From positions 1 through 36,164 of the forward strand of contig JAJZQW010000020.1 of the NCBI GenBank assembly GCA_021802985.1: 36,164 nucleotides of DNA, given 5' to 3'. Of this stretch, positions 11,888 through 34,330 are shown piece after piece (the first letter of the stretch is position 1; every line of letters starts with the position of its first letter). Source of the DNA: Acidobacteriota bacterium. GTDB lineage: Bacteria; Acidobacteriota; Holophagae; Holophagales; Holophagaceae. Position numbers and translations under genes: made by a program. The notes under the pieces were generated by a model. That model ran no database searches and was not told the DNA's origin. It saw only the letters and a program-made list of their open reading frames with translations.

Positions 11888-14800
11888 ATGTCCCCCGCGC
11901 TTGATGCCTTCCTGAAGACCTGGCGAGGTTCCGCCGGGAACGAGCGGGCGAACTTCCAGTCATTCCTTCGGGACTTCTGCGCGGCGCTGGAACTGCCGGT
12001 GCCCGAGCCCAAGGGGGTGGAGTCCACCCATTGCTTCGAGAAGGATCTCAAGCTCACCCACCTGGACGGCACCACCACCACCGGCTCCATCGACCTCTAC
12101 CGCGAGGGCTGCTTCGTGCTGGAGGCCAAGCAGGGCAGCACCACCGACGTGCCCGGCTCCGCCCCCCGGCGGGGCACCCGCGCCTATGACCGCTACATGG
12201 AAGCGGCCTTCGGGCAGGCCGTGAACTACGCCCGCAACCTGCCCCAGCGCCCACCCTTCGTCCTCACCTGCGACATCGGCCACGCCTTCCATGTGTGGGA
12301 TGGCTTCTCCGGGGCCTACGGCGGCTATGGCGCCCGGCGCAGCTTCACGATGGACGACCTTCGTACGCCCAAGGTGCAGGAATACTTTCGCGCCCTGTGG
12401 CTGGATCCCCAGAGCCTCGACCCCGCCCGCACCCGCACGGCCGTCACCCGCGACGTGGCCGCCGCTCTGGGCGGGCTGGCCCGCAGCCTGGAGGCCCGGT
12501 TCCCCGCCGAAGTCGTGGCCCGCTTTCTCATGCGGGTGGTCTTCACCTTCTTCGCGGAGGACGTGGGCCTGCTGCCGGAGAAGCTCTTCCAGAACGCCCT
12601 GGAGGGGGCCTGGAAGGAGCATCCCGAGGCCTTTCCCAAGGGCATGGAAAGCCTGTGGGACGCCATGAACACCGGCGGCTTCTGGGGCCCCCTCAAGGTG
12701 CTTCGTTTCAACGGCGGCCTTTTCGCCGAGAGCCTGGCCCTGGACCTCACCGCCGAGGAGATCGCCCGGCTGGCGAAGGCGGCGGCATTCAACTGGTCCG
12801 AGGTGGACCCCAGCATCTTCGGCACCCTGCTGGAGAGCGCCCTGGATGCCCGGGAACGCCACCGCCTGGGGGCCCACTACACCCCTCGGGCCTACGTCGA
12901 GCGCCTACTCCGCCCGGCCCTGGAGGAACCCCTCCGGGCAGACTGGGAACTGGCTCAGGCCGAGGCCATGGCCCTGCTCGGCAATGATCCCACCGAGGCC
13001 GACAAGGCCAAGGCCCGGGAGGTGCTCCACGCCTTCCAGCGCCACCTGGCCCATGTGACGGTGCTCGATCCGGCCTGCGGCAGCGGCAACTTCCTGGCCA
13101 CGGCCTACGACGTGCTGAAGCGCCTGGAGGGCGAGGTGCAGCGCCGGCTGGAGGATCTGGGCGAGACGGGCCGCTCCCTGGCGTTGGAGGGCGTGCTGGT
13201 GACGCCGGGGCAGTTCGTGGGCCTTGAGGTGAAGCCCTGGGCCGCCGCCATCACCGACCTGGTGCTGTGGATCAGCCACCTGCAATGGTTCCACCGCCTG
13301 CACCCCGATTTGGCCCCGCCCGAGCCCGTGCTCCAGGCCTACGACAACATCCAGTGCCGCGACGCCGTGCTGACATCGAGCGGCACCCGCGAGACCGGAC
13401 GCAGCCGCTGGGATGGCCGCACCTTCAAGGCCCACCCCGTCACGGGCAAACAGGTACCCGACGAGACCGCCCAGACCGCCATCGTCGAATACCTGGACCC
13501 GCGCCCCGCCGAATGGCCCGACGCCGATTTCATCGTGGGCAATCCGCCCTTCCTGGGGAACAAGCGGATGCGCGAGGTTCTGGGGGACGGCTATGCCGAG
13601 GCCCTCCGCGCCGCCTATCCCGAGGTGCCTGACAGCGTGGACTTCGTCCTCTACTGGTGGCACAAGGCCGCCGAGGCCGTGCGGGCAGGCCGCGCCCGCC
13701 GCTTCGGCCTCATCACCACCAACAGCCTCACCCAGACCTTCAACCGCCGCGTCATCGCCCACCACTGCGCCGTCTCTATCACCGTTCATCACCGTTTATC
13801 ACCGGCGAAAAAAAGAAATCCAGCCGGTGATGAACGGAGATTCACGGTGATAAATGAAAAGGAAATCCCTGGCTTGAAATTGCTCTGGGCCATCCCCGAC
13901 CACCCCTGGACGGACGAGGGCGCCGCCGTCCGCATCGCCATGACCGTGGGCGGCCTGGAAGGGCATCCCTGGCTGGGCCGCGTGGTGGAGGAACACCGCG
14001 CCGACACGCCCGAAGCCGAGGCGGCGGCCGTGAAGGTGGAAGGACGGGGCGTGGAGGTGATCCACGAGGATCTGAGCGCGGGAGCGAACGTTGCCTCGGC
14101 CTCGCCCCTCAAGGCCAACTCGGGACTTTGTGGCCAGGGAATGAAGATCGTTGGTGACGGATTCTACGACCACCACGAGCTTTCAACTTCCATCATTTCG
14201 CCAACGACCGGAGTGCCGATTGTCAGAACCATCCTGAATGCCCAAGACATCATCCAGGGCCGGCCTGGACGGAAGATCATCGATTTCTTCGGGCTCACGG
14301 AGGCCCAGGCCAGGACCCTTCATCCCGCTGCCTACCAGCAAGCGCATGACGAGGTGCTTCCGATCCGGGGCCAGAACAGCCGCGCCTCCATCCGGGATCT
14401 GTGGTGGCGTTTTGCCTGGGAGAGGCCGGTGGTCCGAGACGCGATCAAGGGTTTGGGGCGCTACCTTGTCACCCTCTCTGTATCCAAACACCGTTTCTTT
14501 GTTCCCATTCCCGAAGAAGCGATCTGGGACGGGGCGCTCTTCGCCATCGCGAGCAACGAAGCCTTCCACATGGGCGTCCTCTCCTCCCGTGTCCACCTTG
14601 CTTGGGCGCTCGCGGCTGGGGGAACGCTTGAGGATCGGCCCACCTGGACCAATTCCACCTGCTTCGACCCCTTCCCCTTCCCAAACGCCACGGAACCGCA
14701 GAAGGTCCGCATCCGCGACCTGGCGGAGCGGCTGGATGCGCACCGCAAAGCGGCCCAAGGCCGGGGCGTGACGATCACGGGCATGTACAACCTCCTGGCC

Positions 14801-15349
14801 AAGCTGCGGTCGGGGGAGGCTTTCACGCCCAAGGAGCGGGCGCAACACGAGGCCGCCCAGACGGAGATCCTCCGCCAGCTCCACGACGAGTTGGACGCCG
14901 CCGTGGCCTTGGCCTACGGCTGGCCAGCAGACCTACCCGACGCGGAGATCCTGGAGCGCCTGGTGGCCCTCAACCGCGAGCGGGCCGCCGAGGAGGCCAA
15001 AGGTCTCGTCCGCTGGCTGCGCCCCGAATACCAGGCCCCCCACGCCGCCGAGCCGGTGGCTGCAACCATCCTCGAGCTGGAACCGGAGGCGGCGTTGGCG
15101 GTGGCCCCCATCGAGCCCCAGCCCTGGCCCAAGGACCTCAAGGCCCAGCTCGCCGCCCTGAGGGGCATCCTGCTCTCCTCGGGCCGTCTATGGACCCTGG
15201 AGGCCGTCGCCCAGGCCTTCAAGAGCCGTGGCCGCTACCGCGAGAGCATCGCCGCCCACCTGGACCTCCTCACCGACCTCGGCATGCTCAGCCGCGTGGA
15301 CACCCCTGGGGGCCCGCGCTGGCATCGGCCCCAGGCAATGGGGGCCTGA
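11888..15349 (+). CDS. MmeI-family (type IIL) restriction-modification enzyme
   Basis: 1153 aa; one polypeptide carrying nuclease, N6-adenine methyltransferase and target recognition, cutting at a distance from its site. The nuclease is D69-x9-E79-A-K81, the same spacing as MmeI D70/E80/K82. Helical linker follows; methyltransferase motif I DPACGSGNFLATA (394-406) and motif IV NPPF (552-555) are intact. The target-recognition part lies near 720-960. The C-terminus is longer than MmeI (919 aa) and ends in a winged-helix-like stretch (SIAAHLDLLTDLGML). A hairpin repeat is inserted in frame at residues 631-655, between motif IV and the WAIPDHPW strand. GGAGG precedes the ATG. No separate methylase or restriction gene is adjacent. 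Confidence 0.9.
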   Translation: MSPALDAFLKTWRGSAGNERANFQSFLRDFCAALELPVPEPKGVESTHCFEKDLKLTHLDGTTTTGSIDLYREGCFVLEAKQGSTTDVPGSAPRRGTRAYDRYMEAAFGQAVNYARNLPQRPPFVLTCDIGHAFHVWDGFSGAYGGYGARRSFTMDDLRTPKVQEYFRALWLDPQSLDPARTRTAVTRDVAAALGGLARSLEARFPAEVVARFLMRVVFTFFAEDVGLLPEKLFQNALEGAWKEHPEAFPKGMESLWDAMNTGGFWGPLKVLRFNGGLFAESLALDLTAEEIARLAKAAAFNWSEVDPSIFGTLLESALDARERHRLGAHYTPRAYVERLLRPALEEPLRADWELAQAEAMALLGNDPTEADKAKAREVLHAFQRHLAHVTVLDPACGSGNFLATAYDVLKRLEGEVQRRLEDLGETGRSLALEGVLVTPGQFVGLEVKPWAAAITDLVLWISHLQWFHRLHPDLAPPEPVLQAYDNIQCRDAVLTSSGTRETGRSRWDGRTFKAHPVTGKQVPDETAQTAIVEYLDPRPAEWPDADFIVGNPPFLGNKRMREVLGDGYAEALRAAYPEVPDSVDFVLYWWHKAAEAVRAGRARRFGLITTNSLTQTFNRRVIAHHCAVSITVHHRLSPAKKRNPAGDERRFTVINEKEIPGLKLLWAIPDHPWTDEGAAVRIAMTVGGLEGHPWLGRVVEEHRADTPEAEAAAVKVEGRGVEVIHEDLSAGANVASASPLKANSGLCGQGMKIVGDGFYDHHELSTSIISPTTGVPIVRTILNAQDIIQGRPGRKIIDFFGLTEAQARTLHPAAYQQAHDEVLPIRGQNSRASIRDLWWRFAWERPVVRDAIKGLGRYLVTLSVSKHRFFVPIPEEAIWDGALFAIASNEAFHMGVLSSRVHLAWALAAGGTLEDRPTWTNSTCFDPFPFPNATEPQKVRIRDLAERLDAHRKAAQGRGVTITGMYNLLAKLRSGEAFTPKERAQHEAAQTEILRQLHDELDAAVALAYGWPADLPDAEILERLVALNRERAAEEAKGLVRWLRPEYQAPHAAEPVAATILELEPEAALAVAPIEPQPWPKDLKAQLAALRGILLSSGRLWTLEAVAQAFKSRGRYRESIAAHLDLLTDLGMLSRVDTPGGPRWHRPQAMGA
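13778..13851 (+). repeat. In-frame hairpin element of ATCACCGTT-type units inside the MmeI-like gene
   Basis: Two 28-base arms (13778-13805 and 13824-13851) are inverted copies matching at 24 of 28 positions, with an A-rich 18-base loop. Each arm consists of about three 10-base units (ATCACCGTTC, ATCACCGTTT, ATCACCGG). The stretch is A+T-richer than the gene around it and encodes about 25 basic residues not expected in the family. The frame is kept. Its architecture matches the hairpin at 33949. Confidence 0.85.
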
Positions 15350-16410: not shown

Positions 16411-16973
16411 CAGTCCGTGCCCTCCAGCAGCTGGGTAAGGAAGCTCTCGGCGAAGTCGTCCGCCAGGCTTTCGATCACCTGCACCTCCCGGTCATCGAAG
16501 CTGGCGAAGTTCTGGTCCACCCGGTACTGGTTGGAGAAGGTGAGGTGCCGCCGACTGAGCACCACGGCGCCGGTCTGCCCGTCCAGCAGTTCCACGCTGG
16601 CCACGACCTTGATCTCCACGCGGCTGGCGCTACCCGCGCTGGCCTTGTCGCTGCCATTGCCGAGGGTGAGCCCCAGGGGGCGGGATTCGTACTGCTCCAG
16701 GGTGCCCTGCAGCACCCAGCGCGACGGTTCGCCCGGCGGCACCAGCTTCCAGGGGCTGGCCGCCACGATGCGGCTCTCCAGGGCCTTGGTGAAGCGGTCC
16801 TCCAGGCCCAACTTAGGCGTGAGGTTGCGGAACCGCGCCAGCCGGATCGTCTCCCCCTTCTGGGCCCAGGCCGCCTTCCGCGGCTCCCGGTCCAGCCGGT
16901 GGTACCCGCAGCCGGAGGAGAATAGGAGGCAGGACATCAAGAGGAAAATGGTCGCGGAAGGCACGGAAGTCAC
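16410..16973 (-). CDS. lptE: LptE-like outer-membrane LPS-assembly lipoprotein
   Basis: LptE plugs the LptD pore that delivers LPS to the outer membrane. The protein shows a lipoprotein signal ending FSSGC, then GYHRL, as LptE usually begins after the Cys. Further family-like stretches are RLARFRNLTPKLGLEDRFTKALESRI and SRVEIKVVASVELLDGQTGAVVLSRRHLTFSNQY. The start is uncertain: GTG 16973 (188 codons), GTG 16964 and ATG 16937 are all in frame, none with a good ribosome site. The signal has no basic residue because its 5' end lies in repeat DNA of the neighbouring GxxExxY element. GTG 16973 overlaps that gene's TGA. The context with holA supports the call. Confidence 0.82.
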   Translation of the reverse strand: MTSVPSATIFLLMSCLLFSSGCGYHRLDREPRKAAWAQKGETIRLARFRNLTPKLGLEDRFTKALESRIVAASPWKLVPPGEPSRWVLQGTLEQYESRPLGLTLGNGSDKASAGSASRVEIKVVASVELLDGQTGAVVLSRRHLTFSNQYRVDQNFASFDDREVQVIESLADDFAESFLTQLLEGTD

Positions 16974-17446
16974 TCGGAAGACGCGGAATAGGGATTGTGT
17001 TGCATCACGAAGCGCCGGATGCCTTTGCGTCCCATCGGATAGACGCCGAAGTTCAGGAGCAACCCGACCGGTTTCCCCGAAAACCGGAGGTAGCTCAGGA
17101 TCTGCGCTTCATGTTCGGGTGTAAATGCTTCAGCGACCTTCAATTCGACCACCAGCACATCGTCCACGACGAGGTCCATACGGAAAGCCAGGGGAACACT
17201 CAGTCCGCGATAGGTCAATCCGAGACTCACCTGGCATTCGACCCGATGTCCCCTCAACTGAAGTTCATGTGCCAGACAAGCTTCATAGGCGCTTTCCAGC
17301 AGCCCAGGACCGAGGGATCGCTGAACTGCGATCGCCGCTCCAATGACTGATCGGGTCAGATCCGGGTGGGGTCCATCGATTTGAAGCTCCTGGACGACGG
17401 TGTCTCCCGCGTCTTCCGCGCTCTTTCCGCGCCTTCCGCGACCAGC
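16949..17446. mobile_element. Putative GxxExxY element with inverted periodic ends
   Basis: The left end (16949-16989) and right end (17406-17446, inverted) align over about 40 bases: each begins TGGTCGCGGAAGGC and continues with CGGAA repeats spaced 9, 11 and 9 bases. Between them lies only the GxxExxY gene, whose first 20 codons and last codons are made of end DNA. It separates hpt from lptE. No target-site duplication is evident. Mobility is inferred from the inverted ends and from a second, gene-less copy at 19825. Confidence 0.65.
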
Positions 17447-19824: not shown

Positions 19825-20005
19825 GCTGGTCGCGGAAGACCCGGAAAGAGACACGGAAGGCGCAGAAGGGTCCTGGGCGCCCGCTGAAACGATGCCGTGA
19901 TGGACCGACTGGTCCTGCCCGCTCGCATGCACAACAGCGCAAGCCAAGCACCTGACCCCAACCTTCCGCGCTTTCCGCGCGGGTTCCGCGCATTCCGCGA
20001 CCAGC
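19825..20005. mobile_element. Gene-less (MITE-like) copy of the GxxExxY-type ends
   Basis: The left end (19825-19869) and inverted right end (19961-20005) both start GCTGGTCGCGGAA and continue as CGGAA units spaced 9, 11-12 and 9 bases. The roughly 90 bases between hold no plausible gene. The box is shared with the ends of the GxxExxY element at 16949 (11 of 13 bases there at the left end, all 13 at the right end). It sits between the convergent Spy-like and rnj genes and could fold as a long hairpin and serve as a terminator. No clear target duplication was found. Confidence 0.7.
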
Positions 20006-32532: not shown

Positions 32533-33552
32533 ATGCTGGTCCTGGGTCTCGAGTCCTCCTGCGACGACTGCTCCGCCGCCGTGGTGGAGGAAACGGCCCA
32601 CGGCCCCGTCCTGAAATCCATGGTGAGGAAGAGCCAGGACGGCATCCACGGGCCCTTTGGCGGCGTGGTGCCGGAGTTGGCGGCTCGGGAGCATCTGCTG
32701 CAGGTGCGCTCCGTGATGGCCGAAGCCCTGGCAAAGGCCGGGGTCGGACTGGCGGACCTGGATCGCCTCGCGGTCACCCGCGGCCCTGGGCTGGTGGGCA
32801 GCCTCCTGGCCACCTTCAGCGCCAGCAAGGCCATCGCCTGGCGCGAGGGCATCCCCTGGGTGGGGGTGCATCATCTGCTCGGCCACCTGAACGCGGCTCG
32901 CTTCGCCGTCCCGGACCTGCCCTTCCCCGCCCTGGCCCTGCTGGTCTCCGGCGGCCACACGCACCTCTACTTGGCCCGGAACTGGACCTCCCTGGAACTG
33001 CTGCAGAAGACCCGGGACGATGCCGCGGGCGAGGCCTTCGACAAGACGGCGCGGATGCTGAACCTGGGCTATCCGGGCGGACCCGTGGTGGATGCCTGTG
33101 CCGCCCGGGCGCCGAAGGCCGCCGAGCCGTTCACGCCGCCGAAGTTCCGGGATGGGAAGGCCTCCTGGAGTTTCTCGGGCCTCAAGACCGCCGTGAAACT
33201 CCGGGTGGAACGTACCCCCGGCCTGGCGGAGGCCGGCGCGGAGGACCTTGCGGTCCAGGGCCTCTGCCGCAGCCTCCAGGAGGCCATCTCCGGCTGGCTG
33301 CTGAAGCCCGTGCCTGAACTCGCACGAGCGAATGGGGCGCGGAGTCTGATCATCAGCGGGGGCGTGGCCTGCAACTCGCGCCTGCGGACGGATGCCGCGA
33401 CCCTGGCCGCCCGCGAAGGCTTGGTCCTGGCCATCCCCGAACCCAGGCTCTGCACGGACAACGGCGCCATGATCGCCGCCGCCGGGGCCCTGCTTCCGGT
33501 GGAGGTCGATCCCTGGCCGCAGAACGCCGATGCGGATCTAAAACTGGCCTGA
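32533..33552 (+). CDS. tsaD: TsaD, tRNA t6A threonylcarbamoyltransferase
   Basis: TsaD transfers the threonylcarbamoyl group to A37 of ANN-decoding tRNAs. 339 aa: LVLGLESSCDDCSAAVVE at the N-terminus, GPFGGVVPELAAREH, the iron-binding HHLLGHL (H114, H118), LVSGGHTHLYLA, the DAAGEAFDKTARML loop and the C-terminal CTDNGAMIAAAG with the metal Asp. GAGGG precedes the ATG. Divergent from priA; the downstream GxxExxY gene starts 19 bases after its stop. Confidence 0.96.
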   Translation: MLVLGLESSCDDCSAAVVEETAHGPVLKSMVRKSQDGIHGPFGGVVPELAAREHLLQVRSVMAEALAKAGVGLADLDRLAVTRGPGLVGSLLATFSASKAIAWREGIPWVGVHHLLGHLNAARFAVPDLPFPALALLVSGGHTHLYLARNWTSLELLQKTRDDAAGEAFDKTARMLNLGYPGGPVVDACAARAPKAAEPFTPPKFRDGKASWSFSGLKTAVKLRVERTPGLAEAGAEDLAVQGLCRSLQEAISGWLLKPVPELARANGARSLIISGGVACNSRLRTDAATLAAREGLVLAIPEPRLCTDNGAMIAAAGALLPVEVDPWPQNADADLKLA

Positions 33553-33571: not shown

Positions 33572-33991
33572 ATGCCCGACATCAAGTCCCTATGCGATCA
33601 GATCCGCCAGACCTCGTTCCAGATCCACAGCTACCTTGGAAGCGGTCACCTCGAGAAGGTGTACGAGAACGCTCTGGCCCACCGATTGCGCAAGGCTGGA
33701 CTGAAGGTCGAACAGCAGCGCCCCATCAAAGTCTTCGATGAAGACGGCACTCTGATTGGAGACTACCTGGCCGATCTGTTTGTAGAAGACGTACTGGTTG
33801 TAGAGCTGAAAGCCGCAAGGAGCCTGGCTCCCGAACACGAAGCCCAGGTGCTGGGCTACCTCAAAGCTTCGAGGATCGAACACGGGCTATTGATCAACTT
33901 TGGAGCCACGAAATTCGAGATCCGCAAATTTATTTGGAATGAAAATCAGCCACAAAGAACACAAAATACACAAAAGAATGAAGCTTTGTGA
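33572..33991 (+). CDS. GxxExxY protein 2, PD-(D/E)XK nuclease-like
   Basis: 139 aa. Motif G25-HL-E28-KV-Y31 (in LGSGHLEKVYENAL) gives the family its name. Nuclease-like residues: D68 (YLADLF), E78 and K80 (VVELK), the same D-x9-E-x-K as the first copy, then EHEAQVLGYLKAS and GLLINFG. It is more A+T-rich than tsaD and gatC. The last residues (QPQRTQNTQKNEAL) are the translation of a hairpin repeat that begins inside the gene. The weak repeat-like GCCACAGGAAACGCC just before the ATG may be a worn left end. It differs clearly from copy 1, so it is not a recent duplicate. Confidence 0.88.
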   Translation: MPDIKSLCDQIRQTSFQIHSYLGSGHLEKVYENALAHRLRKAGLKVEQQRPIKVFDEDGTLIGDYLADLFVEDVLVVELKAARSLAPEHEAQVLGYLKASRIEHGLLINFGATKFEIRKFIWNENQPQRTQNTQKNEAL

Positions 33992-34010
33992 CCTTTGTGC
34001 CTTTTGTGGC
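33949..34010. repeat. Hairpin element of CACAAAG-type units at the end of GxxExxY gene 2
   Basis: Arms 33949-33976 and 33984-34010 are inverted copies, each beginning GCCACAAA at its outer end and made of three 9-10-base CACAAA units, with a 7-base loop. The gene's last 14 codons are in the left arm. Bases 34011-34036 (CATTCT, a T run, TTGTGATTTATGTGG) look like further decayed units that could pair with the GAATG at 33976-33980. The hairpin lies between the GxxExxY gene and gatC and could also act as a terminator. Confidence 0.8.
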
Positions 34011-34045
34011 CATTCTGTTTTTTTGTGATTTATGTGGAGCCTGAT

Positions 34046-34330
34046 ATGGACGTGACCCGCGAGGATGTGCTGCGCTGCGCCCGATTGGCCCACCTGAGCC
34101 TGGTCGAGGATGAGGTGGAACCCATGCGCCTCGCCATGGAGCAGATGCTGAACCACGCCGCCAGCCTGGACGAACTTCCCCTGGATGACATCGAGCCCAC
34201 CCCGCCTGGCCTCGGTCGCCCCTTGCCCAGGCGGGAGGATGAATCCCGCGACGGGTTCACGCAGGCGCAGGCTCTGGCCAACGCCCCCGCGCAGGGCCGT
34301 GGGCACTTCGTCGTGCCGAAGGTGCTATAG
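34046..34330 (+). CDS. gatC: GatC, amidotransferase subunit C
   Basis: Small stabilising subunit of the GatCAB amidotransferase, which turns misacylated Glu-tRNA(Gln) or Asp-tRNA(Asn) into the correct aminoacyl-tRNA. 94 aa: VTREDVLRCARLAHLSLVEDEVEPM at the start, MLNHAASLDELPLDDIEPT in the middle and the usual GHFVVPKVL end. The ATG at 34046 is preceded by GGAG. An in-frame upstream start at 33995 lies in hairpin DNA and is rejected. gatA and gatB do not follow, so the complex is encoded at separate sites. Confidence 0.93.
   Translation: MDVTREDVLRCARLAHLSLVEDEVEPMRLAMEQMLNHAASLDELPLDDIEPTPPGLGRPLPRREDESRDGFTQAQALANAPAQGRGHFVVPKVL

Follow-up and report, generated by a model that had tools for sequence, protein, structure and literature searches.

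A candidate two-part system of GxxExxY nuclease genes and lineage-matched tandem-unit hairpins, organised like RAYT/REPIN, in Acidobacteriota and other bacterial phyla

Introduction

Among the described bacterial repeat systems, the closest to the one presented here is that of the RAYT (TnpA-REP) proteins and their REPINs, in which the gene is bordered by its repeat and inverted doublets of that repeat, able to form hairpins, are dispersed mostly outside genes; the protein lineage is linked to the type of repeat, and inheritance is mostly vertical (PMC3116915). Another point of reference is the intervening sequences of 23S rRNA genes, where a small S23p or four-helix-bundle ORF is carried in an insert bounded by inverted repeats, with three tandem heptamers found upstream of the S23p gene of Coxiella (PMC4990558).

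The window analysed in this study is a stretch of 36,164 nucleotides from a Geothrix relative (Acidobacteriota; genome of 2.3 Mb, 72% complete) and contains two genes of the uncharacterised GxxExxY family. Compared with RAYT/REPIN, GxxExxY genes are likewise bordered by their own repeat, inverted doublets of the same repeat are likewise dispersed outside genes (with one exception within an ORF), and the protein lineage is likewise linked to the repeat type and mostly inherited vertically at one or two syntenic sites (14 in one clade). The differences lie in the enzyme, which its family and predicted fold identify as a PD-(D/E)XK nuclease where RAYT is a Y1 HUH tyrosine enzyme; in the arms, which consist of about three tandem units of 8–11 bp where a REP is one imperfect palindrome; and in the presence of many repeat families together in one genome. 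Since the organisation is alike and the enzyme is different, GxxExxY would work like RAYT/REPIN without being a member of it. From the 23S rRNA intervening sequences the system differs in its unrelated protein, and the published cases there are located in rRNA genes and have a shorter unit. Among 5.39 million open-access papers no earlier description of a GxxExxY-repeat pairing was found, and matches to the unit sequences were unrelated; GxxExxY is named in two of these papers, in one of them just as a neighbour label, and PF13366 in one.

Results

The first gene (L008) occupies positions 33,572–33,991 on the forward strand, between tsaD (32,533–33,552) and gatC (ATG at 34,046), and encodes 139 aa with both the G-x-x-E-x-x-Y and the D...ExK residues (PF13366, E 3.7e-35; 121 bits against a cut-off of 22 in the family profile search). 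The initial annotation had described this gene as ending within a CACAAAG hairpin, and this was borne out: its final ~13 codons are repeat DNA, the left arm CCACAAAGAACACAAAATACACAAAAG (33,950–33,976, forward strand) holds three units with a period of 9, the inverted right arm CTTTGTGACCTTTGTGCCTTTTGTGG (33,984–34,009, reverse strand) holds three units at 9-bp spacing, and the stop codon TGA (33,989–33,991) sits within the right arm. The two arms pair with each other, and folded as single-stranded DNA the hairpin reaches −14.9 kcal/mol (z −3.7; beaten by 1 of 200 shuffles); folded as RNA with longer flanks it shows a small excess of just z −1.6. A consensus scan of the hairpin gave no intrinsic-terminator match.

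Both arms lie 3' of the gene in this copy. Since a complete CACAAAG hairpin stands on each side of the orthologous gene in two relatives (G018 and G027), the 5' hairpin has probably been lost from the window copy and the 3' one retained. Extension of the gene into the repeat had been proposed as part of a common design, a proposal which did not survive comparison with five orthologues: four of them (L039–L042) stop before the repeat array, and the fifth (L043) reads into it as does the window copy (L038 in this comparison). Judged from these sequences, the read-through is lineage-specific and incidental and no design feature. Beside the tsaD–gatC gene of L040 (G029), the CACAAAGAA array has grown to at least seven units, so that the number of units is labile.

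The segment 33,553–34,035, the edges of which are approximate, is missing from relatives with empty sites at the compared loci: in most compared Geothrix genomes gatC comes directly after the tsaD stop codon, six genomes carry the gene with CACAAAG repeats, and one (G003) lacks the gene and contains a hairpin from a different family. The insertion is an old one.

The second GxxExxY gene (L006; 16,970–17,458, reverse strand; PF13366, E 7.9e-37) has a 5' arm of CGCGGAAG units at 17,407–17,444 (reverse strand) and an inverted 3' arm at 16,949–16,986 (forward strand), both matched by the family pattern, with an inverted-repeat score of 23 against a maximum of 15 in 200 shuffles. The two window genes had been credited with the same design, but the likeness is a looser one: L006 lies between its arms, unlike L008, whose arms are both on the 3' side. 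A gene-less CGCGGAAG element at 19,828–20,002, with arm ends GGTCGCGGAA and TTCCGCGACC, is found ~2.4 kb away from this gene. Another gene-less hairpin, of a different family (TATCACCGTTCATCACCG...) with a 10-bp period, is situated at 13,777–13,852 inside a long ORF (11,888–15,349) whose frame remains open through it, and is the one exception to the extragenic placement of dispersed copies.

All 13 members of an alignment that includes the L008 domain match TIGR04256. PF13366 (PDDEXK_3) was the only domain found in L008, with neither a DDE transposase nor a Y1 HUH tyrosine transposase among the results. The AF2 model built from 64 sequences (pLDDT 93) has a predicted fold that matches Cas4, lambda exonuclease, restriction enzymes and Hjc, and thus the PD-(D/E)XK superfamily; the best match in the PDB was Cas4 SSO0001 (Foldseek E 1e-4; Z 9.9, rmsd 3.6 over 99), Hjc was matched at Z 6.7, and a sequence search of solved structures gave no convincing match (best E 0.14). 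Throughout the 64 sequences D68, K80 and the G-x-x-E-x-x-Y motif are invariant and E78 is nearly so. By family and predicted fold GxxExxY is a PD-(D/E)XK nuclease, an assignment that does not in itself imply the reaction. It is distinguished from Cas4, lambda exonuclease and Hjc as a stand-alone protein of ~125 aa that bears the G-x-x-E-x-x-Y motif and is partnered with repeats.

The initial annotation had noted that two out of two GxxExxY genes touched such repeat DNA, and the same can be said of all eight in the genome. Seven of these are flanked by matched inverted arms, each of about three units of 8–11 bases, with arm scores exceeding all 200 shuffles; the eighth is L008, where both arms stand 3' of the gene. 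Each locus has a distinct unit (GATGCACACAG, CACGAAGA, ACAGGATTA, GCGAAAGA, GCCAAGA, CGCGGAAG, CGAAGGC and CACAAAGA), and at most loci the score of an arm with its own partner is far above its scores with arms of other loci, the exception being L007, whose arms score higher against those of L002, a locus with a similar unit. Local alignment of the flanks found these arms, which a general repeat finder did not report, and L001–L008 gave no match to a known structured RNA family above the Rfam gathering score.

In total 227 GxxExxY loci were gathered from Geothrix, other Acidobacteriota, Planctomycetota, Cyanobacteria, Desulfobacterota, Chloroflexota, Verrucomicrobiota, Alphaproteobacteria and others, 189 of them distinct and 184 with a long enough flank. 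With matched arms defined as an inverted arm score of at least 15 within 200 bp, 154 of the 184 distinct genes have such arms, as against 2 of 465 equal-size control windows elsewhere in the same loci; in the remaining 30 genes no arms were detected at this setting. Separate controls with 250-bp flanks gave 10/256 at tsaD–gatC loci and 6/346 in random windows of the Geothrix set. Some period-10 genes (L108, L112 and L119) have a further hairpin, different and longer (CATGGGGGGCGCCAGGG...), beyond their unit arms. Acidisphaera sp. S103 (G082; L253, L295, L296 and L299) has 27 GxxExxY matches, and the several broken copies among them suggest expansion and decay. Plasmid records matched the L006 query in 6 of 72,556 cases and phage records matched the L001 query in none of 50,697. 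A few viral contigs of IMG/VR (L398, L399, L401 and L402) carry divergent GxxExxY genes with strongly matching inverted flanks; the flanks are in some cases AT-rich, and the contigs could be of host origin.

Protein lineage predicts both the sequence of the arms and the period of their units. After removal of 106 pairs with similar (homologous) flanks, protein identity and arm similarity were correlated with a Mantel r of 0.416 (maximum of 500 permutations, 0.092), and the correlation is weaker when restricted to pairs of Holophagaceae with other hosts (r 0.159; maximum of 1000 permutations, 0.131). Across that same host boundary, the nearest protein predicts the period class in 86% of cases versus 51%. 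The largest protein cluster, with 71 proteins from many phyla, has a period of 10 in 56 of 62 scored members, and most other clusters have a period of 8 or 9; on a protein tree of 145 rows the period class changes 12 times, versus at least 40 times in 200 shuffles. The suggestion that every GxxExxY lineage goes with a repeat type of its own is thereby supported. It came with a proposal to collect loci across genomes and compare protein subfamily with the repeat unit in the flanks, and that comparison has now gone in its favour, for a correlation between clade and repeat was found and most of the genes are flanked by repeats.

Gene-less hairpins of the CACAAAG type occur in several Geothrix genomes, with short loops of ~20–60 bases in most copies. 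Genome-wide counts, which rest on exact patterns, reach tens of arms per genome, and reversed-pattern controls in the relatives found nothing with four of the patterns and 2 hits with the fifth. Over 37 Geothrix genomes the hairpin counts, which include the arms adjoining the gene, are higher where the matching gene is present for CCAAG (p 1.4e-5), CGCGGAAG (p 4e-5 for the strict and 1e-6 for the syntenic gene), ACAGGATTA (p 6e-4) and CACAAAG (p 0.012, the weakest family); of the 12 combinations of a gene with hairpins of another family, 2 fell below 0.05 and the rest were not significant. Phylogenetically independent pairs on a 29-genome alaS tree mostly point the same way (~5:0 for CGCGGAAG, ~2:0 for CCAAG and ~3:0 for ACAGGATTA), with CACAAAG uninformative and no single family reaching significance. 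Some genomes speak against the pairing: four genomes (G004, G009, G021 and G030) have 23–27 CACAAAG arm matches though no such gene was found in them, the genome of the window itself (G000) has no CACAAAG arm at the exact pattern, and in G015 and G031 the arms of the syntenic gene have drifted with CGCGGAAG hairpins still present. In the CCAAG family, genes with G-spelled arms are accompanied mostly by G-spelled hairpins and genes with A-spelled arms mostly by A-spelled ones (GG fraction 0.30–1.00 versus 0–0.31, p 0.001).

The anatomy of the dispersed copies was drawn from twenty CACCAAG hairpins of one genome (G008), which measure 60–86 bp arm to arm and have variable loops, frequently with GATC beside the outer unit and with an A-rich left and a T-rich right edge. 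Each of the 20 has, no more than 30 bp away, the stop codon of an adjacent open frame whose third-position GC is high. No target-site duplication was detected at a fixed offset in these copies (best same-copy match 0.45, permuted range 0.38–0.47). In a small sample of 17, the variable spacer bases of one arm pair with those of the other no better than chance (10/17 and 8/17), a result more in keeping with separate recognition of the individual units than with strict pairing of a hairpin.

In contrast to the dispersed hairpins, most gene lineages of the genus occupy one or two syntenic sites and are single-site and vertically inherited; the period-10 clade is not of this kind, as it occupies 14 sites in the genus. 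The purH–alaS site holds a CACCAAG hairpin in seven genomes, a TCGCAGAG hairpin in two and a gene-bearing CGCGAA-type element in three.

Discussion

Each GxxExxY lineage is bordered by inverted arms with its own unit and spacing and shares its genome with gene-less hairpins of the same unit. The explanation we consider probable is that genes and hairpins form a two-part system working like RAYT/REPIN, the action of the nuclease on the repeats being inferred. The protein would recognise the arms of its own family, whose repeated short motifs make up the site, and would act not just on the copy that surrounds its own gene but also, in trans, on the gene-less hairpins; it could duplicate and maintain the hairpins by cutting or nicking them, with repair or copying to follow, and the duplicates would mostly land just after the stop codons of genes. 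The gene L008, with the CACAAAG hairpin kept on its 3' side, would represent one such lineage. The data are compatible alike with replication of the hairpins and with their maintenance by conversion.

A classical transposon with its MITEs would require the gene-bearing loci to be autonomous elements that end in inverted repeats, from which the gene-less hairpins derive by deletion and move by cut-and-paste. The position of the gene between inverted arms at most loci, the 14 sites of the period-10 clade in one genus and the inverted ends common to gene-bearing and gene-less copies, a likeness to the MITEs of DDE insertion sequences, agree with this; yet no DDE transposase is present, the 20 copies are devoid of a detected target-site duplication, most gene lineages are fixed at one syntenic site with gene copies mostly immobile, and the searches made found almost none on plasmids and none on phages, making this account unlikely. 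Nor does it seem at all likely that the hairpins are themselves the drivers or of use to the host, as terminators or mRNA 3' ends, with the nuclease as a domesticated controller that cuts cruciform or RNA arms without any spreading. Such a role would suit the proximity of all sampled hairpins to stop codons and their A-rich left and T-rich right edges, but it is at odds with the window hairpin, which gave no intrinsic-terminator match in the consensus scan, with the chance-level pairing of the spacers, which speaks against strict hairpin pairing, and with the spelling of the dispersed copies, which follows the arms of the gene.

In the PF05635 four-helix-bundle genes (23S rRNA IVP/S23p-like) of Geothrix relatives (L128–L157), tandem-unit inverted arms were seen in 20 of 22 tested, often as heptamers (GCTATCA, CAGTCTT and AGGCATT). 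The arm design can thus carry more than one protein, and these comparable arms of other units would be expected if GxxExxY were an unrelated hitchhiker carried passively by diverse repeat elements. That reading is highly improbable, however, given that unit and period follow the protein clade even between distant hosts and that the co-occurrence of gene and hairpin is family-specific. Regarding the RAYT/REPIN-like system, we lean slightly towards a broader form of it, in which tandem-unit hairpins are phylum-spanning genome parasites or domesticated repeats replicated in trans by mostly single-site GxxExxY proteins of the PD-(D/E)XK type, convergent with RAYT/REPIN and with many specificities per genome, and in which the S23p genes are a second, unrelated protein to have adopted the arm-based life.

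Overall, GxxExxY genes and their hairpins have the look of a system, not described before, by which DNA hairpins are spread or maintained in bacteria. The proteins extend over many bacterial phyla and reach 27 copies in a single genome among those searched, and the pairing of lineage and unit offers a direct hypothesis for what this family recognises and would account for the numerous hairpins dispersed near the ends of genes. It also provides a natural series of nuclease–target pairs that could be used to work out a recognition code. If true, the RAYT/REPIN way of life would have arisen independently in a nuclease of unrelated fold, and the S23p genes would link rRNA intervening sequences to arm-based elements.
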